Positions 44,265 to 55,557 are shown, counted from the stretch's first letter. The stretch: 64,000 nucleotides of DNA from Halobacteriovorax sp. HLS (GCF_004006665.1 NZ_QOCL01000003.1:248001-312000); one strand, 5' to 3'. Notes: generated from the sequence alone by a model not told the origin. Numbers and translations: made by a program.

Positions 44265-44306
44265 ACTTCAATATTATTTATGTTATTAGTATTTAACGGA
44301 GCAGTT

Positions 44307-45254
44307 ATGACAAACGAAACAGTAAGAAAGGTACCTGAATTAAGTCTATTAAATTATATAAATGGATCAAGTTCTGACCAGATTAGTTTTGTAGATAACC
44401 TCATGTATGGACTTAAAGAGTATGGTTTTATTGTTTTAAAAGATCATACTGTCGATCAGCATAAAGTTGATAAGGCCTATGAATATTTAAGTGAATTCTA
44501 CGCTCTACCAGTAAGTGTAAAAGAAAAGTACTGTGCTAATAACGGCGGTCAACGTGGTTATACGCCTTTTAAAGTAGAGCATGCAAAGGATAATGATAAC
44601 CCTGATCTTAAAGAGTTTTGGCACGTAGGAAGAGAGCTTGCTGCAACTTCACCATATAAAGGTATCTACCCTGAAAATATTTGGCCTACTGAAGTTCCAG
44701 AGTTTAAAAATACATTTAATGAACTTTATAACTCTATGGATGCAACATCAGTTGTACTGTTAGAAGCGATTGGAAAAGGCCTAGACCTTCCTGAAAATTA
44801 CTTTAGATCAATGGTAAATGATGGTAACTCAATCCTTAGAGCAATTCATTATCCTCCTACTAAAGGCGAAGATACGAAGAATTCTATCCGAGCAGCTGCC
44901 CATGAAGATATTAATCTAATTACAATGTTAGTTGGTGCGACTGAATCTGGCCTAGAATTACTAGATAAAGACGGAACTTGGCTTGCTGTTCAATCATCTC
45001 CAGGTGAGATCGTTGTAGATACTGGTGACATGATGAGTAGACTTACAAATAATGTTCTCCCTGCAACTACTCATAGGGTTGTTAATCCTACCAATGATGG
45101 CTCAAGAAGGTTCTCTATGCCTTTCTTTGTTCACCCTCATTCAAATGCAAACCTTAGCTGCGTTCCTAGTTGTATAGGGGATGGTGCTAAGTTTGAAGAT
45201 ATCACTGCAGGTGACTTTCTTATCCAAAGACTAAAAGAAATTGGTCTATATTAA
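44307..45254 (+). CDS. Isopenicillin-N-synthase-like 2-oxoglutarate/Fe(II) dioxygenase
   Basis: 315 residues from the ATG at 44307 (GGAG five bases upstream). The N-terminal non-haem dioxygenase domain has EYGFIVLKDH and FYALPVSVKEKY. The C-terminal jelly roll binds iron through H199-x-D201 (AAAHEDINLITML) and H256 (ATTHRVVN), and the 2OG carboxylate via R268-x-S270 (RRFSMPFF). The HEDINLITML form is seen in bacterial IPNS-like oxygenases of unknown substrate. It hydroxylates, desaturates or cyclises a small molecule. A hairpin separates it from the diiron-oxygenase operon. Confidence 0.92.
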   Translation: MTNETVRKVPELSLLNYINGSSSDQISFVDNLMYGLKEYGFIVLKDHTVDQHKVDKAYEYLSEFYALPVSVKEKYCANNGGQRGYTPFKVEHAKDNDNPDLKEFWHVGRELAATSPYKGIYPENIWPTEVPEFKNTFNELYNSMDATSVVLLEAIGKGLDLPENYFRSMVNDGNSILRAIHYPPTKGEDTKNSIRAAAHEDINLITMLVGATESGLELLDKDGTWLAVQSSPGEIVVDTGDMMSRLTNNVLPATTHRVVNPTNDGSRRFSMPFFVHPHSNANLSCVPSCIGDGAKFEDITAGDFLIQRLKEIGLY

Positions 45255-45268
45255 TTAAAAAATTCCTA

Positions 45269-45294
45269 CCAGAGGTGTGTCCGCCTCTGGTTCT
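45269..45294 (+). terminator. Probable terminator after the 2OG oxygenase
   Basis: Seven-bp stem CCAGAGG / CCTCTGG, loop of 8 bases, followed by TTCT and a weak T-rich stretch. Imperfect T-tract, so partial readthrough is possible. Confidence 0.55.
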
Positions 45295-45412: not shown

Positions 45413-46417
45413 ATGAAATTTGATATCTATGACGAGCGTAAATTAGCTCGTCAATTGCAAATTCAAAAAAAGAAATCATGGGACTTTGATAAAGATATTC
45501 ATTGGGAAATGGGTATTGACCTAAACAAGTCTCTATTGCCTCTAGATAATAATAGAGCGCTATTTCCAAATGCCTCACAAGAGGAGCTTAAAGTTATTTC
45601 TCAGCTGATGGGTCTAATTGTAGCTTCTACGATCTCTCAACTTGAGGAAGTTGCCTGCAAGTTGAAAGTACCCGTATGGGAGAAGTTTCTAAACAAACAT
45701 CCAGTGAATCCAGAACTATTTGCATTAGGTGAACAATTCTTTGAAGAAGAGAAGAAGCACGCAAGAACTTTTAAAAGATATATCAATATGTTTGCAAGTG
45801 AAGTAAATATTGATCCTGACGATTTAAGTTCTATTTTACCAAGCTCAGAAAATTCAAGCATCGAAAAAATATATACTCTCAATTCTAATATGGGTGGCAT
45901 GGCCATGTGGTGGCTAATAAGTGCTGTAGAAGAAGAGGCGATTCTTTTTTATCACTTCCTACATGAAGTAAAAGATTCAGTTGATCCGCTTTATTATCAA
46001 ATTCATAGATGTCACTTTGAAGAAGAAGTTCGTCATAAGAGTTATGCTCAGATGATGCTTGAAGTTCATAAAGAATTTGAATCTGGACCAGTTTCACAAA
46101 TGTTCAAGAAGGTTGATTTTATTACGGCCGAAGTTCTAAATATGACATGGACATTCAAACAACTATTGAAAGTTAAGAAATTAAAGAAGTATAAGAATCA
46201 TCATCAGTTCTTTGCTACATTATCTAAAAGTATAGATCATATTTCTAATATGTCGTACTACCAGTTAATGCATACTTTATTTAACTCGACACCATATATT
46301 TCTCATACTCTACATCTATCGGAACATAAGCATGTAAAAGAGATGTTAAGTCGATATAAAGGCCTAAAGCTACCAATACCAAGTTCATCTCTAGGAGATA
46401 TTAAGTGTATTGTATAG
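45413..46417 (+). CDS. AurF-like non-haem diiron oxygenase
   Basis: 334 residues, no signal peptide. Metal ligands expected for the AurF/CmlI N-oxygenase family can be laid out in order: Glu at ~78/79 (SQLEEVACK), E113-xx-H116 (EEEKKHART), Glu at ~173-175 (AVEEEAILFYHF), then H201-xxx-E205-xx-H208 (HFEEEVRHKSY). AurF family enzymes oxidise aryl amines to nitro compounds; other members oxidise C-H bonds, so substrate cannot be stated. SD AAAGGAAG. First gene of a four-gene row; the next gene overlaps by 13 bases. Confidence 0.8.
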   Translation: MKFDIYDERKLARQLQIQKKKSWDFDKDIHWEMGIDLNKSLLPLDNNRALFPNASQEELKVISQLMGLIVASTISQLEEVACKLKVPVWEKFLNKHPVNPELFALGEQFFEEEKKHARTFKRYINMFASEVNIDPDDLSSILPSSENSSIEKIYTLNSNMGGMAMWWLISAVEEEAILFYHFLHEVKDSVDPLYYQIHRCHFEEEVRHKSYAQMMLEVHKEFESGPVSQMFKKVDFITAEVLNMTWTFKQLLKVKKLKKYKNHHQFFATLSKSIDHISNMSYYQLMHTLFNSTPYISHTLHLSEHKHVKEMLSRYKGLKLPIPSSSLGDIKCIV

Positions 46418-47247
46418 ATACGATCATTCGAGGTGGTCAGAAAATTTACTTTATTAATGAAAATCATGACGAACAAAGAGATCTTGTTATTATGTTTCAT
46501 GGTTTTCCTGATACTGCATATGGCTTTGATAAACAAATCACTCAGCTTAAAAAGAAGTATAATGTTATTGTTCCTTTTATGCATGGGACTCTAAATAATA
46601 CTGATATCAGCTTTAAGAGAATCCACCCTAGAGAAATTATACTCGATGTTCAGGCCTTACTAAAAAAGTTTAACCCTTCAGAGAAGAGACGGGTTTTCTT
46701 AGTAGGTCACGATCTAGGATGTTTTACAGCGGTTGGAACCTATGAGGCATTTCCATATCATATTAAAGGTCTAGTCCATATTAATGGTCTTGGATTACAA
46801 CAGTTTTATTCTAGAAGATTTAACCTCTCTCAAATATTAAAGTCATACTATGTATTTCTTGTGCAATTGAGTCTTGTTCGCTTCATAGTAACAAAGTTAT
46901 TTCCTCAGTTCTTTTTGAATCTTATATATAGAATGTCATTGATTGATAAAAATAATAAAATCTATCAAAATGATAATTCCGTCTTTAAGGGAATTGAGAT
47001 TTATAAACACCTATTTAGAAAGGTCTTTACCTACATTGGAGCACCAAGACAGAAGGTGCGGGTTCCAGCTCTATTTGTTTGGGGAAACAAAGATAAGTTT
47101 TTAGATATTCCTAGTACTGATGAAATAAATCAATTCTATGATAACGCTCAGATAAGAATTTTACGAGGTGGCCATTGGGCACATCATAGCAGTGGGGATC
47201 AATTTAATAGAATTCTCGATAACTGGTTAGGTTTAGCGAATGAATAA
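46405..47247 (+). CDS. Alpha/beta hydrolase of epoxide-hydrolase type
   Basis: 280 residues from a GTG at 46405 with AGGAG seven bases upstream, inside the diiron gene. The oxyanion region HGFPD (~32) and nucleophile elbow GHDLGC (Asp103) are those of epoxide hydrolases and haloalkane dehalogenases, not Ser esterases. Acid D230 (VWGNKDKFL) and base H257 (RGGHWAHH) complete the triad. The cap region is hydrophobic (YYVFLVQLSLVRFIV), suggesting a lipophilic substrate or membrane contact. Its stop overlaps the first desaturase start by eight bases. Confidence 0.85.
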   Translation: MYCIDTIIRGGQKIYFINENHDEQRDLVIMFHGFPDTAYGFDKQITQLKKKYNVIVPFMHGTLNNTDISFKRIHPREIILDVQALLKKFNPSEKRRVFLVGHDLGCFTAVGTYEAFPYHIKGLVHINGLGLQQFYSRRFNLSQILKSYYVFLVQLSLVRFIVTKLFPQFFLNLIYRMSLIDKNNKIYQNDNSVFKGIEIYKHLFRKVFTYIGAPRQKVRVPALFVWGNKDKFLDIPSTDEINQFYDNAQIRILRGGHWAHHSSGDQFNRILDNWLGLANE

Positions 47248-48124
47248 ATTCAAAAAAAATCCAAATTATCTACTAAGTTATAGTATAGCTCATTGCATAT
47301 TCTTCGCAGTGATTTGTTTATTACTAGCAGCTTTTAAGGGATTTTCTTATGAAGTTAACTTCAAGTCATATGATTCTCTTGTTGTCTTGTTGGCCATTAT
47401 TCTATGTGGTCTTCCTTCTAGTGTGTTACATAACTGTGCTCATCGTAATGTTGGCCCAAGATTTACTAACGACTTAATAGGAGAGTTCTTAGGAACTCTC
47501 ATGCTCTATGGCTATAGGGGCTTTACTCTTGGTCATATGTTTCACCATAAATATCCTGATAATCCTGAGTTTGATCCACATCCTCCTAGGGGCTATTCGT
47601 TTCTAAGATTTGTGATCTCTCCTGTAAAGGCAACATTAATCATTATAGAAAGAGCATACTTTAAATTCTTTGGAAATAACTCTAAAACTAGGGCCAATAT
47701 TTCTATGCAAAAAACATTCTTCAACGTTTCGATTGCTTTAAAGGTTTTGTTTTGGTTTTTAGTCTTTGGGCTGAAGTACTTTCTAATTTTCTATTTACCG
47801 CTTTATGTATTAAATATATTTGTTTTTGCACATATTAACTACGCAACTCATATTGAAAATAGTGAAGGTAACTCTGAGATCATCAATCTTAAAGACGGCC
47901 TATATTATAAGTTTGTAAACTTGGTGTCTTTCGGTGGTTATTATCATAAGAATCACCATTTAAGACCACAGGTTTTTAATCCTTCAAAGATAATTGAAAG
48001 TGATGAAAATTATATTAGTTATGTTCCAGAGATTGATCTTAAGACTCCTAAAAGAAGCAAGATTTTTGAATTAAAATTAGTTAATGGTCTTGAGCAACTC
48101 TCTAAAAAGTTAAATTTAGAATAG
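47240..48124 (+). CDS. Membrane fatty-acid-desaturase-like diiron enzyme (copy 1)
   Basis: 294 residues with four or more membrane segments. Three histidine boxes of the membrane desaturase/hydroxylase superfamily: H64-x3-H68 (HNCAH), H99-xx-HH (HMFHH) and H236-xx-HH (HKNHH), plus accessory His in FAHINYATH. These bind two irons for O2-dependent desaturation or hydroxylation of a lipid or alkyl chain. The conserved FDPHPPRG after box 2 is shared with the next gene. Overlaps the upstream hydrolase by eight bases. Confidence 0.88.
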   Translation: MNKFKKNPNYLLSYSIAHCIFFAVICLLLAAFKGFSYEVNFKSYDSLVVLLAIILCGLPSSVLHNCAHRNVGPRFTNDLIGEFLGTLMLYGYRGFTLGHMFHHKYPDNPEFDPHPPRGYSFLRFVISPVKATLIIIERAYFKFFGNNSKTRANISMQKTFFNVSIALKVLFWFLVFGLKYFLIFYLPLYVLNIFVFAHINYATHIENSEGNSEIINLKDGLYYKFVNLVSFGGYYHKNHHLRPQVFNPSKIIESDENYISYVPEIDLKTPKRSKIFELKLVNGLEQLSKKLNLE

Positions 48125-48131
48125 GTTAATT

Positions 48132-48944
48132 ATGAATAAGTACAAGAAAGATCCAAATTACTTTTTAGACTACTTTATAAATAATATATTTATTTTCTCT
48201 ATACTTATAGTAGCTTTGATTCTTATTAAAAATGATTACTTCTCTTTTAATATAACTGGACTTAGTTTTCTCCTTATTCCCGTAGGTTTACTCTTAGGTC
48301 TTGTTGTCGCAACTGCTTTTCATAATGCAAGTCATGGCAATATTAGGCCCAGAATATTAAATACCGTCGTAGGAGAGCTCTGTGGAGCAATTGCCCTTGA
48401 TGGTATGAGAAATTTTCGTGTTGGTCACATGTTACATCATATACATTCAGATGACCCTATTCTTGATCCTCATCCTCCGCATGGACTAACATTTATTGAA
48501 TTCATTAAGACATCCAAGAATAAAACAATCAGTGTTCTTATTTCTAAGTATTATGAATATCATGGTGATACTTCGAGTAGTAGATCTAATATTGAAAAAC
48601 AGCTTATCTGTTATAAATTCTCAGTTGTACTTAAACTTGTATTTTGGTTTTTATTGCTTGGGCCTATTGGTTTTTTCTTTTTCTATGGTCCTACTTTTTT
48701 AACATACTTTCTGGGTTTTGCTCACCTTAATTATATCTCACATGGCCTTGATGATAAGGGAGACGAGGTGATGTTTAATCATGACGGAGGAGTTTTCTAT
48801 ACTTTTATGAACTTCATGACGGCAGGTGGCTACTATCATAAGAATCATCACAAGTATCCAGGACTTTATAATCCTAAAAGAATAGACTTATTAGTATCAA
48901 ATAAAAGTGAAAAATTTAAAATCTCAGACCAACAGACAACTTAG
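48132..48944 (+). CDS. Membrane fatty-acid-desaturase-like diiron enzyme (copy 2)
   Basis: 270 residues. Clearly a tandem paralogue of the preceding gene: the same opening (MNKYKKDPNY), the same box positions H64/H68 (HNASH), H99/H102/H103 (HMLHH) and H236/H239/H240 (HKNHH), and LDPHPPHG after box 2. The copy is well diverged between boxes and 24 residues shorter at the C-terminus, so the two probably act on different positions or substrates. Seven bases separate the genes. Its 3' end overlaps a convergent gene by 29 bp. Confidence 0.88.
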   Translation: MNKYKKDPNYFLDYFINNIFIFSILIVALILIKNDYFSFNITGLSFLLIPVGLLLGLVVATAFHNASHGNIRPRILNTVVGELCGAIALDGMRNFRVGHMLHHIHSDDPILDPHPPHGLTFIEFIKTSKNKTISVLISKYYEYHGDTSSSRSNIEKQLICYKFSVVLKLVFWFLLLGPIGFFFFYGPTFLTYFLGFAHLNYISHGLDDKGDEVMFNHDGGVFYTFMNFMTAGGYYHKNHHKYPGLYNPKRIDLLVSNKSEKFKISDQQTT

Positions 48945-49821
48945 AATTTACCATTCCTGTTTCCTGTTCTTCACCTTCGGTGAAGATTTCACTTGCTACG
49001 ATACTTTCAATCTGTAGTTCGATAAGTAGGGAGAAGAAAGACTCTTTTGGAACGGTTTCATAACCAAATCTGAAGTAGGGAAGAAGAGTTGCACTACCTG
49101 TTTTAACATTATCTCCAACCTCTGTAGATGATCTTCCAATACCACCTCCAAGACCAGCATATAGGTGAGATCTTGAATTTCTAAAATCATTGAAGTGATA
49201 GGTCACATCGCCAATTAGGAAGTAGCGTGTAGAGGGAATAATTCTCTCTGGATTTGTTCCTTCGTAAGAATCTGTGTCATATCTTAGACCTGCACCAAAC
49301 TCTAAGTTTCTATTTAATCTATTCGAGTATAGTGCCTCTAAGTGTACTCCTGATCTTGGTCCTAGTGTTTCTGCTTGAACTTCAGATGTAGACTGGCTAA
49401 GAGATCGTGAGTAAGACGTTCTAAATGAGAGGTATGATCTTGTTACTGATCTAAGAAAATTCTCTTCTTTTTGAGCTTCAACCTCTTTAAGTTTTGTAAT
49501 GATCACTTCATTCCAAACTCTCTCAAGTGAAGAGGTGAAAGTTACGATTTCATCCCTTTTAAATGGGACGGTTGCTTCTTTATCAAGCATCGTCCAAAGA
49601 GAGTAGTGTCTCGTAACTTCCTTGGCCCTAGCAGTGAAAGAAATATCTGAAGTTGAAAAAAGTGATACTTGTCCTTGGGAGACACCAGCATCTCTTCCTT
49701 TTCTGATAACAAAAGTCTTTGCTTGCTTTGAAACAGATTGCACGATCACAAGATTTTCATTGGCGAAAACTGGAGTGGACAATGCCAAGCATAGAATAAA
49801 AAGAAGAAAAGATTTTCTCAT
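48916..49821 (-). CDS. Exported outer-membrane-beta-barrel-like protein
   Basis: 301 residues from the ATG at 49821; an upstream TTG (49839) is also possible, and neither has a clear SD. Signal peptide MRKSFLLFILCLALSTPVFA. An N-terminal globular part (~25-120) is followed by a Gly/aromatic, strand-rich region (~130-301): GVHLEALYSN, LEFGAGLRYDTD, SHLYAGLGGGIG, ending in LSVGLRF with the C-terminal Phe typical of barrels recognised by BamA. Probably an 8-strand barrel. It may be unrelated to the desaturase operon that runs into it from the other strand. Confidence 0.65.
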   Translation of the reverse strand: MRKSFLLFILCLALSTPVFANENLVIVQSVSKQAKTFVIRKGRDAGVSQGQVSLFSTSDISFTARAKEVTRHYSLWTMLDKEATVPFKRDEIVTFTSSLERVWNEVIITKLKEVEAQKEENFLRSVTRSYLSFRTSYSRSLSQSTSEVQAETLGPRSGVHLEALYSNRLNRNLEFGAGLRYDTDSYEGTNPERIIPSTRYFLIGDVTYHFNDFRNSRSHLYAGLGGGIGRSSTEVGDNVKTGSATLLPYFRFGYETVPKESFFSLLIELQIESIVASEIFTEGEEQETGMVNSKLSVGLRF

Positions 49822-50109: not shown

Positions 50110-53100
50110 ATGACTAAACGTTTGACAAATTTTTTAACTTTCGCATTTGCAATTTGTATTTTTGCATCTTGTGTTGCGGAAAAAAAATCTAAGTCTCCAA
50201 AGTGTGGAGTCGGCGAAGAGTTTAATAAAGTTTCTCAAAAATGTATCAACGTAAGACAGGCCCCGACTTCAACTCTTAATACGCTAGAAGTCTATGAAGA
50301 CTCTGGTTCTACACTTTTTACTCTTAACTACACTGATGTAAACAATGATCAAGCAATTGATTGTCAGGTCTTTGATACAGAGACAAATATTGAAATAAGA
50401 ACACCAATCCTTTCTAGTACAAAGGCCGATGCTCTAGCAATTCTTAATGAAATTAACTCATGCGCTGTTGGAGTAAATCCAATCACTCATCCAGTTGAGA
50501 GTGCGAGTGCAATTTCACAAATGAGCTTTGTTCAAATGGCCTATGATGCAATCCTTTCGACAGAAGATACAGTAGGACTTTATTCTGCATATAACCTTTT
50601 TTCCTCAAGAGTTGATAGCCTTGGTACATATTGCGAGTCAATTAGTGGCCAACCAATTCTTCAGTACTATGGAACTCTATCGAAGAATCTAAATACTGAG
50701 CTTAAGACTAAGGCCGAATGGATAAATAAGAGATGCTACTGTAGTGCCGGTCAATGTAGTGCTGAGCTGATTCCTGGCGAAAATATAAGTGGTGAATTTG
50801 GAATTTCTTATAATGTTACTGAAGGTGTAGATGGAACATCTGTAACTCGTCAAGTTCAGGTTTCTGTTATTCCTGTGAATGACCTACCTTACGCTGTTGA
50901 TTTTCATGTTACAGGACTTGAAAGTACAACAACGAGCTCACTACCAATTAATTTTACAATCCCTTTAGGACGTGATGTTGAAAGTGATCAATCATTTTCT
51001 TTAACATATGAAATCGTGACTCCTCCTGTGAATGGAACACTCACAAGCTGCTCTATTGCTAATGATGGCTCTCTGGCTAACGATAGAAATTGTTACTATA
51101 TCCCAACAGATAGTAACGCTGGTGTGACTCCGGCCGTAAATAAGATTGCTTCGTTAACTACACTTGGTGATAATGCAACTGACGGGATTCTGTATCAGGC
51201 AAAGACTGGTGGAGCAATGGGTGAGGCCATTTCTATCTTTTATAAGCAACATCCTTTATTAAATAGTGGCAATAATGTTCTTTTAGAGAAAACGGGACGT
51301 GAAATTACTATTTATATTGAAAATGAAAATACTTCAATTAAAGCAATTGTTGATGCAATTAATAATGATAAAGATATTTCTTCTTTTTTAACTGCGACCT
51401 CAACAAATACGGCAACAGAAAATACTAATATGCAAGAGGTCTCAGTGACTAAGGCATACCTTTCGGCCAGCAATACTCCTTTTGATACTTTTACTTATAG
51501 AGTAAGAGACGAGTCAGGTGTAAGTTTAGGGCTTGGTTATGGAAGTATTGATGTAGAGCTACAAGATGATCTTCCTGTTGCGGTACCGATTTCAAGTTTA
51601 GATCTAATTTTTACTGAAGATACTGAAAAGACACTTACTCTTTCGATTACAGATGCAGAAAATGACAACGCGGCACTTTGTTCAGTAAACCCAACTGATG
51701 CTACTTTTGTGGGTGCTCCTTCTACATCAAATCTTATTGAAAAAGGTACTTGTACTTGTTCTGGAACAGATCAGACTTGTACAGTGACATTAAAGCCTAA
51801 GCCTAATGTTACTGGTAATGCTTATTTTACTTGGAATATTACAGATGCAAACTCACAGGTAACAAGTACGCAATATGCTGTAGTGACAATAAATCCAGTT
51901 AATGATGTTCCTTTTGCAAGATATCTTTCAACTACTCATAATGAATCTGCGACAGCAACTGTTGATACAACACCTTATAGTTTTAGTTTTGCAAGTGGCC
52001 TCGATTTAGATGGAGACACCCTTACTTATACTTATCTAAATGATGGTGATATTGATGGAGGGACTTTAGGTGGATGTGTTGATGGTGCAAATAATATTAA
52101 TATTGCAACAACTTGTACTTTCTATCCTAAAGATGGAAATATTAATGGGGTCTCTACTACTCTTGCTAATGGAACGCTTGCTCATAATGGTGGAAGCATT
52201 ACATTTACTGCCAAGGCCTATGGCGAATCAGGAAACGATATAACTGTAAATTTAATTGGTGATGCGGGAGCTGCTAATTTTACTGAATATATAACGATAA
52301 CTTCTAATAGTATTATTAATGTCTACTTAGAGTTAGGTGTTAGTGATTTAAATGCAGTGAAAACTGCAATCGATTCACATCCATATGCTTCTGAACTTGT
52401 TTCTGTTGCGGTTGGTACAAATCAGCTTGTTATTGCAAATACTACGACAAACTTAAGTGGGGCCGAAATAAGTGCACATAAGTTTAACTATCAAGTCACT
52501 GACTCTTCTGGCCTAACAGCAAGAGGAACTTATCATATTAATATTACTCCTGTTGATGATACTCCAGTAATATGCCCGTATTCAACTTATCCTACAGTGA
52601 AAGATTGTGGACTAAGTGGGTGTGTGAACACTGGATCGCCAACAGTGAAAGGTTTTGTTCCAACAGCAGCTGACCTTTATTATTATGATTCACAGTCTGC
52701 AGTTTGTTATAAGAGTAGTGGAACAACTGGAGCATACACTTGGAGTATTTTTACTGATTATTCTTCAGTTATTCCAAATCAAATTGTTCACCAAAATGGT
52801 TCCATTAAAATTAATAATATTAAAATTGATGAAGGTGGTGCAGATACAACTGAAGACGCGAATACTATTCGTATCACAAATGTGGAAGTATTAGATTCAG
52901 GGCAAAATCTTGTTCCAATCAAAACTGAAAATATTAAATTCTACTATGGTGATGTTGCCGTACCTATGTGTCTTAATACAGGAACAACTCCGACAACAAT
53001 TTATAGCTGTGGTGGAAATCCAAATATTGGTGGAGCGGCCGGTGCTTCTTCACTCGATCTTGAAGACTTATCTATTGAGATTATTCCAACATCTTCAAAA

Positions 53101-55557
53101 GTAGGTGTTACTGATATTAGAATTAACTTCTCAGAGTATAGTGGTGCTACGGCCATTAACTCATTTACTTCTACGTTTAATTTAAAAATAGCTGATGTGG
53201 CCATTCAACATAATGGTTGGAGCTCAATTGTTGCTTCTGGACCAAAAGTTGATCATTTTGGCGATGTTAAAGATGAGAATCTTGTTTGTAATTATAGCGA
53301 AACCAAATGTAGTGGTGGAAAAGAATGTTCTGGGACATCAGCTGAGTTCGGCACAAGTTATGCTGATGAAGTTCATAGTGTTTACTACGAAACAACAAAT
53401 AATAAGTGCTACTATGCAAGTACAGCAGGGCTTGGTACGACGACTTGGATAGAATTTAATACTTACTGTGGAGTAACTCCAAGTTACTTTGATAGTGGTT
53501 GTAATTCTGCTGAAGCTAGTTGTATTGGAACTTCAACACCTGCGACTGCACAAAAATTAAATTCTCTCTTTACGAAGATTCTCTATGTAGCTCCTACAGC
53601 TCCAAGTGTAACAGGAAGCTTAACCACAACTTGTTATAGATCTACTGGTCCTAATACATGGGAAGAATATAATGCTTTTGGCTCTGTTAGCTTGAAGTGG
53701 AACCCAATGGTACTAACTGGAAGCGGCTCTATTGCCGGTTACAATATTTTTAGAAGACTCTCAAATGAAGAATTTGACTATAAGTCACCAATCAATAAGA
53801 GTCTTGTTTCTGCAATAACGGTTCAGTATATTGATAATTCAACAAACTCTAAATTTGGGCCTATCCCAAATACAGTTTATTTCTATGAAGTGGTTCCTGT
53901 CGTTGTTGCGAGTGGTTCATCTGATCAATTCCAGATTAGAACAAGTGACTTTAATTCACAGGCGGTTATTAGAGTTCTTGTTCCTGGCGAAAATAAAAGT
54001 TTAGTACCAAGAGATATTGTCAATATCACGATGTGTAAGAAGTTAAATGATTCAAGTTCAACAGGTGAGATCTATTCTTATGATAGTACTTTAAAAACTT
54101 ATACTTGTGCCTATGCAGGCCCTGGTGATAATGGAGCAGGAAAGTATGACTTAGGTCAAGACCTGATCGTTGATAGATTTGAAGCTGGTTGTCCTTATAC
54201 AAAGTCGACTGATGTCATATCCTCTTGTTCTAGTGCAGCTGGAAATATTTCAAACGACGGGAGTTGTATTGGAGTGGTTGATCCTACAGTGGATACCGTA
54301 TCAGTTTCAACTTCAGGACAAGGACAAGTTTACTATAATAGAAGTACAGGAAAATGTTATGAATTAACAGCAGGAACGAGTACTTGGACTGAGCTAGATA
54401 GTTTAGTAAGTTTCACAAATCTGGTTGCTAAATATTCTACAACTCAACTACCTCCACTTGTTCATATGTCACAGGCCAAGGCCAATACTTTTTGTAGTGA
54501 AGTTTCTACAAGTCCAATTCTAGGTCTATGTAGATTTTCGACTTCTGGAACAGGAGCTCCAGCTGGTGCAGTTTCTACTTACTATTTAAATACGGATACA
54601 AATGTTTGTTACTATAATAATGGTGGAACATGGGAAGAAAGAGGAACAAGTTTATCTTCTGAGCTTCCATCAAGAAAGTTTCAGGTGGCCTATTCTGACT
54701 GGGATTATGATTTAGTTTCTGATTCAACTGTTAATACTAGAGAAGGTGGTCTATCACTTAATTCGAACTCAAAGTGTAATACTTCTTCAGCAAATGGCCT
54801 TACGACATTCTATTCAGATGATTCATCACCTGTTGCGAATTCAATCTTTACAATTCCTGGTACGGCCTCTAGCGGAATCCGCTCCTTAATGACAGGGTCT
54901 TCAAAGACTGCTCTTTGTATTTCAAAGTACGGACTACAAGATACGGTTGGAAATGTTACAGAGTGGAGTAATGATAGAATGGATTGTACTGGATTTACTT
55001 GCCAGGGTCTAACTACTGTTAATGGAGCTTATATTGGTAATGCAAGTGATGATTTTGTGGCCACAGGAGCACCATTAATAGGAAATACTTTTGGAACCTA
55101 TGCACTTGATGGTATTTCAGGACCATGTATAGATGTAGACTCAAATGGTGTTTGTGATGGATATTTGACTAGTTGGATCTATGATCAAAAAAGTAATGGA
55201 GCGAGTAGATTCTTTATTCCTATGGGTCTACCTGCTGTGACTACTTATGCTTCAGCTAATCCAACTCACTTAGTAAGTATGTTCTTTGAGCAAATAGGTA
55301 TCTCAAGTGGTATAACTTCAACACAGATGCATGATGATACTATCGTAGTGAATCAGAACTTGCTTGACGATGGTAATAATGCTGCCAATACAGGTGGTTA
55401 TGCTTCATTGGCAACTGGTGGAAGCTTTTTGAAAGGAAATGGCTCGGGTACTTATCATCTAGAGTTGATCCCAACTGTTGATCCTGTAAGAAATAAGGCC
55501 GTAGATATTGGTTTTAGATGTGTTGCGCCAGTCCCTGTTGCAGACTATATCGAATAG
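50110..55557 (+). CDS. Giant multidomain lipoprotein with cadherin-like repeats and C-terminal FGE-like domain
   Basis: 1815 residues. The signal peptide ends in a lipobox (IFASC, Cys21). Residues ~50-840 contain several tandem-95/VCBS-type domains marked by VIPVNDLPYA, INPVNDVPFA and ITPVDDTPVI. Residues ~1190-1300 look like fibronectin type III (VSLKWNPM to YFYEVVPVV). The last ~450 carry a formylglycine-generating-enzyme-like fold, with GLQDTVGNVTEWSND and the end motif VDIGFRCVAP. Short modules with a (V/A)CYY...TW(x)E pattern recur from ~855 to ~1510. Likely a surface-attached adhesin or fibre. The FGE-like part may be a sugar- or ligand-binding fold, not an enzyme; the catalytic Cys pair was not confirmed. 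Only a weak SD (GGG). Confidence 0.8.
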   Translation: MTKRLTNFLTFAFAICIFASCVAEKKSKSPKCGVGEEFNKVSQKCINVRQAPTSTLNTLEVYEDSGSTLFTLNYTDVNNDQAIDCQVFDTETNIEIRTPILSSTKADALAILNEINSCAVGVNPITHPVESASAISQMSFVQMAYDAILSTEDTVGLYSAYNLFSSRVDSLGTYCESISGQPILQYYGTLSKNLNTELKTKAEWINKRCYCSAGQCSAELIPGENISGEFGISYNVTEGVDGTSVTRQVQVSVIPVNDLPYAVDFHVTGLESTTTSSLPINFTIPLGRDVESDQSFSLTYEIVTPPVNGTLTSCSIANDGSLANDRNCYYIPTDSNAGVTPAVNKIASLTTLGDNATDGILYQAKTGGAMGEAISIFYKQHPLLNSGNNVLLEKTGREITIYIENENTSIKAIVDAINNDKDISSFLTATSTNTATENTNMQEVSVTKAYLSASNTPFDTFTYRVRDESGVSLGLGYGSIDVELQDDLPVAVPISSLDLIFTEDTEKTLTLSITDAENDNAALCSVNPTDATFVGAPSTSNLIEKGTCTCSGTDQTCTVTLKPKPNVTGNAYFTWNITDANSQVTSTQYAVVTINPVNDVPFARYLSTTHNESATATVDTTPYSFSFASGLDLDGDTLTYTYLNDGDIDGGTLGGCVDGANNINIATTCTFYPKDGNINGVSTTLANGTLAHNGGSITFTAKAYGESGNDITVNLIGDAGAANFTEYITITSNSIINVYLELGVSDLNAVKTAIDSHPYASELVSVAVGTNQLVIANTTTNLSGAEISAHKFNYQVTDSSGLTARGTYHINITPVDDTPVICPYSTYPTVKDCGLSGCVNTGSPTVKGFVPTAADLYYYDSQSAVCYKSSGTTGAYTWSIFTDYSSVIPNQIVHQNGSIKINNIKIDEGGADTTEDANTIRITNVEVLDSGQNLVPIKTENIKFYYGDVAVPMCLNTGTTPTTIYSCGGNPNIGGAAGASSLDLEDLSIEIIPTSSKVGVTDIRINFSEYSGATAINSFTSTFNLKIADVAIQHNGWSSIVASGPKVDHFGDVKDENLVCNYSETKCSGGKECSGTSAEFGTSYADEVHSVYYETTNNKCYYASTAGLGTTTWIEFNTYCGVTPSYFDSGCNSAEASCIGTSTPATAQKLNSLFTKILYVAPTAPSVTGSLTTTCYRSTGPNTWEEYNAFGSVSLKWNPMVLTGSGSIAGYNIFRRLSNEEFDYKSPINKSLVSAITVQYIDNSTNSKFGPIPNTVYFYEVVPVVVASGSSDQFQIRTSDFNSQAVIRVLVPGENKSLVPRDIVNITMCKKLNDSSSTGEIYSYDSTLKTYTCAYAGPGDNGAGKYDLGQDLIVDRFEAGCPYTKSTDVISSCSSAAGNISNDGSCIGVVDPTVDTVSVSTSGQGQVYYNRSTGKCYELTAGTSTWTELDSLVSFTNLVAKYSTTQLPPLVHMSQAKANTFCSEVSTSPILGLCRFSTSGTGAPAGAVSTYYLNTDTNVCYYNNGGTWEERGTSLSSELPSRKFQVAYSDWDYDLVSDSTVNTREGGLSLNSNSKCNTSSANGLTTFYSDDSSPVANSIFTIPGTASSGIRSLMTGSSKTALCISKYGLQDTVGNVTEWSNDRMDCTGFTCQGLTTVNGAYIGNASDDFVATGAPLIGNTFGTYALDGISGPCIDVDSNGVCDGYLTSWIYDQKSNGASRFFIPMGLPAVTTYASANPTHLVSMFFEQIGISSGITSTQMHDDTIVVNQNLLDDGNNAANTGGYASLATGGSFLKGNGSGTYHLELIPTVDPVRNKAVDIGFRCVAPVPVADYIE

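Follow-up and report, generated by a model that had tools for sequence, protein, structure and literature searches.

A conserved operon of Bdellovibrionota encoding an AurF-type diiron oxygenase, an epoxide hydrolase and two membrane desaturases: a possible module for lipid oxidation

In the marine predatory bacterium Halobacteriovorax sp. HLS, a soluble diiron oxygenase, an alpha/beta-hydrolase and two membrane desaturases are encoded next to each other, which raises the question of what chemistry this set of enzymes could carry out together, and on which substrate. The window analysed here (the whole stretch of 64,000 nucleotides, NZ_QOCL01000003.1:248001-312000) holds the four genes on one strand (Table 1), with intergenic gaps of -13, -8 and +7 bp, and every ORF has either a Shine-Dalgarno-like stretch or coupling to the gene before it. 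The original prediction, made from the sequence of this window, had given exactly these ORFs and gaps and had described one translational unit with the catalytic or metal residues of all four proteins in place; the unit is supported by both the sequence and the conservation of the gene order, and the residues proved invariant, or nearly so, across the families. The operon combines known enzyme families and, as had been anticipated, no described pathway with this four-family set was found in the open-access (that is, non-subscription) literature searched.

Table 1. Coding regions and hairpins of the operon, in window coordinates
Feature	Position	Strand	Basis
AurF/CmlI-type non-haem diiron oxygenase, 334 aa	45413..46417	+	Pfam AurF, ligand set, predicted fold
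alpha/beta-hydrolase, epoxide-hydrolase type, 280 aa	46405..47247	+	GTG start behind AGGAG
Des1 membrane desaturase/hydroxylase, 294 aa	47240..48124	+	Pfam FA_desaturase, His boxes, fold
Des2 membrane desaturase/hydroxylase, 270 aa	48132..48944	+	Pfam FA_desaturase, BLASTP to Des1, separate clade
terminator-like hairpin 5' of operon	45268..45291	.	scan match on - strand with T tail, palindromic; consensus match only
weak terminator-like hairpin 3' of Des2	48968..48986	+	scan; consensus match only

Of the 10 four-gene loci measured, 7 keep the overlap between genes 1 and 2, and 5 keep that between genes 2 and 3 (start codons being approximate for a few loci), despite protein identities of 45-70%; the loci keeping the first overlap include L030, L031, L032 and L043, in which the first protein shares only ~46-57% identity with that of the window. 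The terminator scan returned 4 matches against 2.3 expected, and for this reason the downstream hairpin is regarded as a consensus match only. The upstream hairpin lies between the operon and a gene for an isopenicillin-N-synthase-type 2OG-Fe(II) oxygenase (44280-45254), which is directly 5' of the operon and 83-85% identical in two close relatives (L028 and L029). This gene was considered as a fifth member and rejected, since it adjoins the operon in those two loci only and the terminator-like hairpin stands between. On the other side, the window encodes (50110-55557) a lipoprotein-like secreted protein of 1815 aa, which has cadherin-like repeats and whose C-terminal part resembles a sulfatase-modifying factor (assigned by eye); orthologues of this protein adjoin the operon in L028 and L029.

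The first protein matches the Pfam model AurF (PF11583; E 1.1e-7, 31.7 bits, above the cut-off of 29.6), one of its relatives falling just under that cut-off at 27.1 bits. Its predicted ligands (E78, E113, H116, E173, H201, E205 and H208) are invariant in 30 homologues, satisfy the pattern E-x34-E-x2-H ... E ... H-x3-E-x2-H and are spaced by 35, 3, 57, 28, 4 and 3 residues, against 35, 3, 57, 27, 4 and 3 in AurF, whose ligands are E101, E136, H139, E196, H223, E227 and H230. Carboxylates, mostly Glu, occupy both AurF second-sphere Asp positions (motif, second-sphere residues and ligand roles are from PMC12101540). Sequence-level PDB searches with the family gave no useful match. The AlphaFold2 model (pLDDT 88.8) aligned best in VIA-align with CmlI (5hyg, Z 17.8), with AurF (2jcd) at Z 17.1; the top six rows are all CmlI or AurF (Z 17.8-16.4 over 273-285 residues) and R2lox comes next at 15.8, a modest margin. 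By Foldseek alone, the top-ranked matches were R2-like ligand-binding oxidases, at a weak score (E 4e-3). Taken together, fold and ligand pattern make the predicted placement in the AurF clade a sound one. The protein had been proposed to be AurF-like, an ordinary ferritin or desaturase being the outcome that would speak against this; the predicted structure is nearest to CmlI and AurF, and points to neither a ferritin nor an acyl-ACP-desaturase.

For the second protein (Pfam Abhydrolase_1, E 2e-14) the residues support the prediction of a true epoxide-hydrolase active site, formed by H32-G-x-P35, the nucleophile D103, the lid residues Y149 and Y200, D230 and H257 (in sequence, the motifs HGFP and GHDLG, a lid Tyr in KSYY, a second lid Tyr, an Asp, and the His in GGHW). 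H32, G33, P35, D103, Y149, Y200 and H257 are present in 29/29 homologues, at identities down to 23%, and the charge-relay D230 in 28/29, so that the original assignment to the epoxide-hydrolase type stands with its full signature. The family profile matches mainly epoxide hydrolases, among them the solved enzyme 5ng7 (E 1.2e-39), with whose tyrosines Y149 and Y200 align; two lid tyrosines are the usual feature of epoxide hydrolases (PMC8244358). The nearest NCBIfam model is PRK05855, an epoxide hydrolase-SDR fusion, at 60.3 bits, below its cut-off of 455; the operon hydrolase has no SDR domain and by this model is not an equivalog of EphD, a PRK05855-type protein.

The two remaining proteins both match FA_desaturase (PF00487, cut-off 29.7 bits), Des1 with E 6e-23 (82 bits) and Des2 with E 3e-18 (67 bits). 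The boxes of Des1 are H64xxxH68, H99xxHH103 and H236xxHH240, and the three histidine boxes of the family are invariant in 24 relatives, which agrees with the two membrane desaturases originally described. Des1 and Des2 are paralogues (36% identity) and each forms its own orthologous clade in the tree of the four-gene loci; therefore, their duplication predates these genera. They are also distant from three other desaturases of their own genome placed in the tree (the genome has ten FA_desaturase matches in all). A PDB search with the desaturase profile gave no useful match. The fold search with Des1 returned AlkB (Z 10.2) and SCD1 (Z 8.8) among few strong matches and, since AlkB scores at least as high as SCD1, the modelled folds may stand for either desaturation or hydroxylation. 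A carotenoid substrate, prompted by a weak CrtR-like score of Des1, was discarded, the genome having no phytoene-synthase-family gene. Elsewhere in the same genome (L045, on contig C16, outside the window), desaturase-like proteins form a dense cluster with Rieske-type oxygenases, two B12-binding radical-SAM-like proteins and a GH3-like protein (by eye, except for the desaturase matches), in what looks like an unusual biosynthetic cluster.

How constant this gene set is can be judged from 36 Bdellovibrionota loci, in all of which the hydrolase gene is immediately behind the AurF-type gene (a count made by hand, with tblastn where a spurious opposite-strand ORF masked the hydrolase gene). Left out of this count was an AurF-domain protein of much greater divergence (G015 L044; 27% identical over part of its length), which has no epoxide-hydrolase neighbour. 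Ten loci in 10 genomes have the desaturase pair (type A), 2 have a single desaturase (type C), and 24 have the order oxygenase - hydrolase - M24-peptidase-like - SDR (type B; 19 complete in order, 3 ended by the contig and 2 rearranged); on the AurF tree, one change each suffices for the three types. The stable core is the oxygenase with the hydrolase, the desaturases being the accessory half of this variant: the four-gene unit of the original prediction is confirmed, and it is its scope that had to be corrected. The suggested check, co-occurrence in other Bacteriovoracia, found the unit conserved, and the constant oxygenase-hydrolase adjacency argues against scattered, unlinked homologues.

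Flanking genes differ among most type A genera, and distances are correlated between the four genes (r 0.76-0.90). Where computable, dN/dS is 0.05-0.19, indicating purifying selection (synonymous sites are saturated for L028/L029, L051/L052 being the better pair), and these ratios, together with a gene order recurring in 10 genomes, argue that the operon is not a chance arrangement. The AurF-type family occurs in 30/369 genomes of the phylum, the unit being absent from the other 339, and in a scan of 84,980 genomes with two short peptide patterns, all matches were relatives that carry the label of Bdellovibrionota or group with that phylum, except for one doubtful weak match; no homologue was found in the plasmid collection searched. 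The genus-mate G004 has no such operon, which therefore is not essential to the genus. Within type B, the catalytic YxxxK residues of the SDR are conserved, as are the putative metal residues of the M24-like protein (L033:6788-7657, L036:14783-15688 and ~20 further loci). In G048 (L043:8800-9776, the same as L071), a frame disruption splits the AurF-type gene into two ORFs, the other three being intact, which reflects either decay or an assembly error.

The desaturase homologues also occur in two further contexts, as stand-alone pairs and as single genes of the same subfamily beside a cytochrome P450. The latter adjoins the desaturase in 8/10 single-gene loci read (L103-L107, L109, L110 and L113; assigned by Pfam on three loci and by BLAST for the rest) and, on the far side of the P450, L104 and L105, only 2 of the 8, have a gene of the epoxide-hydrolase type whose product shares the catalytic residues of the operon hydrolase. 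In L032, the type A operon has a second desaturase pair flanking its start and a P450 gene overlapping its end; in the window's own genome no P450 was found. From these gene contexts we infer a common logic of desaturase, oxygenase and epoxide hydrolase, in which the P450 could stand in for the diiron oxygenase, to which it is unrelated, and it is mainly this logic that suggests the AurF-type enzyme as the epoxide maker. A membrane acyltransferase (Acyl_transf_3) is found near the P450 and desaturase in L106, L107 and L113 and next to the paired desaturases of L100; in L031, the type A operon overlaps at its end with a gene for a distant relative of this acyltransferase.

Based on these results, we give about an even chance to the operon being a desaturation, epoxidation and ring-opening module acting on a hydrophobic chain, probably that of an acyl lipid. 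The two desaturases would put double bonds into a membrane-held chain, the AurF-type oxygenase would add oxygen to one of them, yielding an epoxide, and the epoxide hydrolase, translationally coupled to the oxygenase, would open this epoxide to a vicinal diol, the putative end product; both the order of the steps and the lipid nature of the substrate are presumed. The original prediction had the diiron enzyme oxidising another position; the constant pairing of oxygenase and hydrolase fits an epoxide-making oxygenase better. In type B, the same core would pass its product to the SDR, which could oxidise the diol, and to the M24-fold metalloenzyme; as this architecture has no desaturase, the alkene would there come from elsewhere. 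In favour of the module count the adjacency in 36/36 loci, the complete epoxide-hydrolase residue set, the P450-desaturase loci, the correlated distances, the nearest NCBIfam model with its EphD architecture, and the ability of the AurF relatives CylC and NocO to act on fatty acyl chains (PMC12101540). Against it count the 3-His/4-carboxylate set, described as largely unique to N-oxygenases (PMC12101540), the AlkB-like hydroxylase possibility, the hydrolase in only two of the P450 loci and the finding of no ACP, CoA ligase or redox partner in the operon. The lack of a desaturase in type B also speaks against it, as does the fact that no enzyme of the AurF clade is known to epoxidise.

The main rival, which we consider unlikely, is an N-oxygenase of the AurF/CmlI chemistry acting on the amine of a lipid or small metabolite, with the hydrolase and the desaturases tailoring the same amphiphile elsewhere. 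The nearest folds, the AurF-like spacing of the seven ligands and the second-sphere carboxylates all agree with it, but N-oxygenation has no need of the epoxide hydrolase that invariably follows the oxygenase, and the neighbourhoods, where most flanking genes are unannotated, showed no recurring gene recognisable as one for amine formation or aromatic amines. Less probable still would be the handling of lipid epoxides without their synthesis, in which the desaturases and the diiron enzyme would introduce double bonds or hydroxyl groups into chains and the hydrolase would render harmless those epoxides that arise by chance or come from prey lipids. Such detoxification has been proposed for bacterial epoxide hydrolases (PMC7998700), and this group of organisms preys on Gram-negative bacteria; however, the constant adjacency, the kept overlaps and the congruent divergence of oxygenase and hydrolase suggest a shared substrate, and the unit is missing from most relatives.

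Two other readings concern the oxygenase itself. The Foldseek ranking would suit an R2lox-like diiron oxidase, binding a fatty acid and performing a two-electron C-H oxidation, yet the full alignment prefers CmlI and AurF, the score with the NCBIfam R2lox model is 13.8, far below its cut-off of 274, and the ligand pattern has three His residues, all of which makes this very improbable. We give the least credence, next to none, to a radical halogenase of the CylC type with an Asp-nucleophile dehalogenase behind it: although such halogenases resemble AurF and use acyl chains as substrates (PMC12101540), and haloalkane dehalogenases belong to the superfamily of the hydrolase, the halogenase motifs QExxH and HxxDExxH have no match in the oxygenase, where (E/D)ExxH (EExKH or DExKH) and HxxEExxH (HxxEExRH) stand in their place, and the hydrolase keeps both epoxide-opening tyrosines.

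If the module reading is true, the chemistry of the AurF clade would comprise alkene epoxidation in addition to nitrogen oxidation and halogenation. In its most specific form, which we put forward tentatively and as rather doubtful, an AurF-type 3-His/4-carboxylate enzyme would epoxidise alkenes and always be teamed with an epoxide hydrolase. The resulting lipid-diol pathway would be specific to this phylum of predatory bacteria and their relatives; its further modules (the desaturase pair, or the M24-like protein and the dehydrogenase) would be interchangeable, and in relatives a P450 would replace the oxygenase. The operon would be a compact unit for such an oxidised-lipid pathway in Bdellovibrionota, a phylum with poorly mapped lipid chemistry, and a fixed pair with exchangeable partners makes its chemistry amenable to direct in vitro test.

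Compared with known systems, the oxygenase shares with the arylamine N-oxygenases AurF and CmlI the ferritin-like diiron fold (Z 16-18), the seven ligands with matching spacing and a similar length, but only ~10% sequence identity over the structural alignment, and its neighbours are an epoxide hydrolase and desaturases instead of polyketide or chloramphenicol genes. The radical halogenases CylC and NocO are likewise AurF-like diiron enzymes, functionalising fatty acyl chains, but have the QExxH motif and a six-ligand site in place of the AurF-like one, and the operon has no ACP. Des1 and Des2 have the histidine boxes and fold of the membrane desaturase/AlkB/SCD superfamily (PF00487), within which these short (~250-300 aa) tandem paralogues form their own subfamily. 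EphD of mycobacteria, active on epoxymycolates and on 9,10-epoxystearate (PMC7998700), resembles the operon in its hydrolase class, in the lipid epoxide metabolism proposed for the module and in an oxidoreductase partner, encoded by a separate gene in the sister M24/SDR architecture; whereas EphD is one fused protein, the hydrolase of the operon is a separate protein encoded behind a diiron oxygenase and, in the four-gene variant, ahead of the desaturases.
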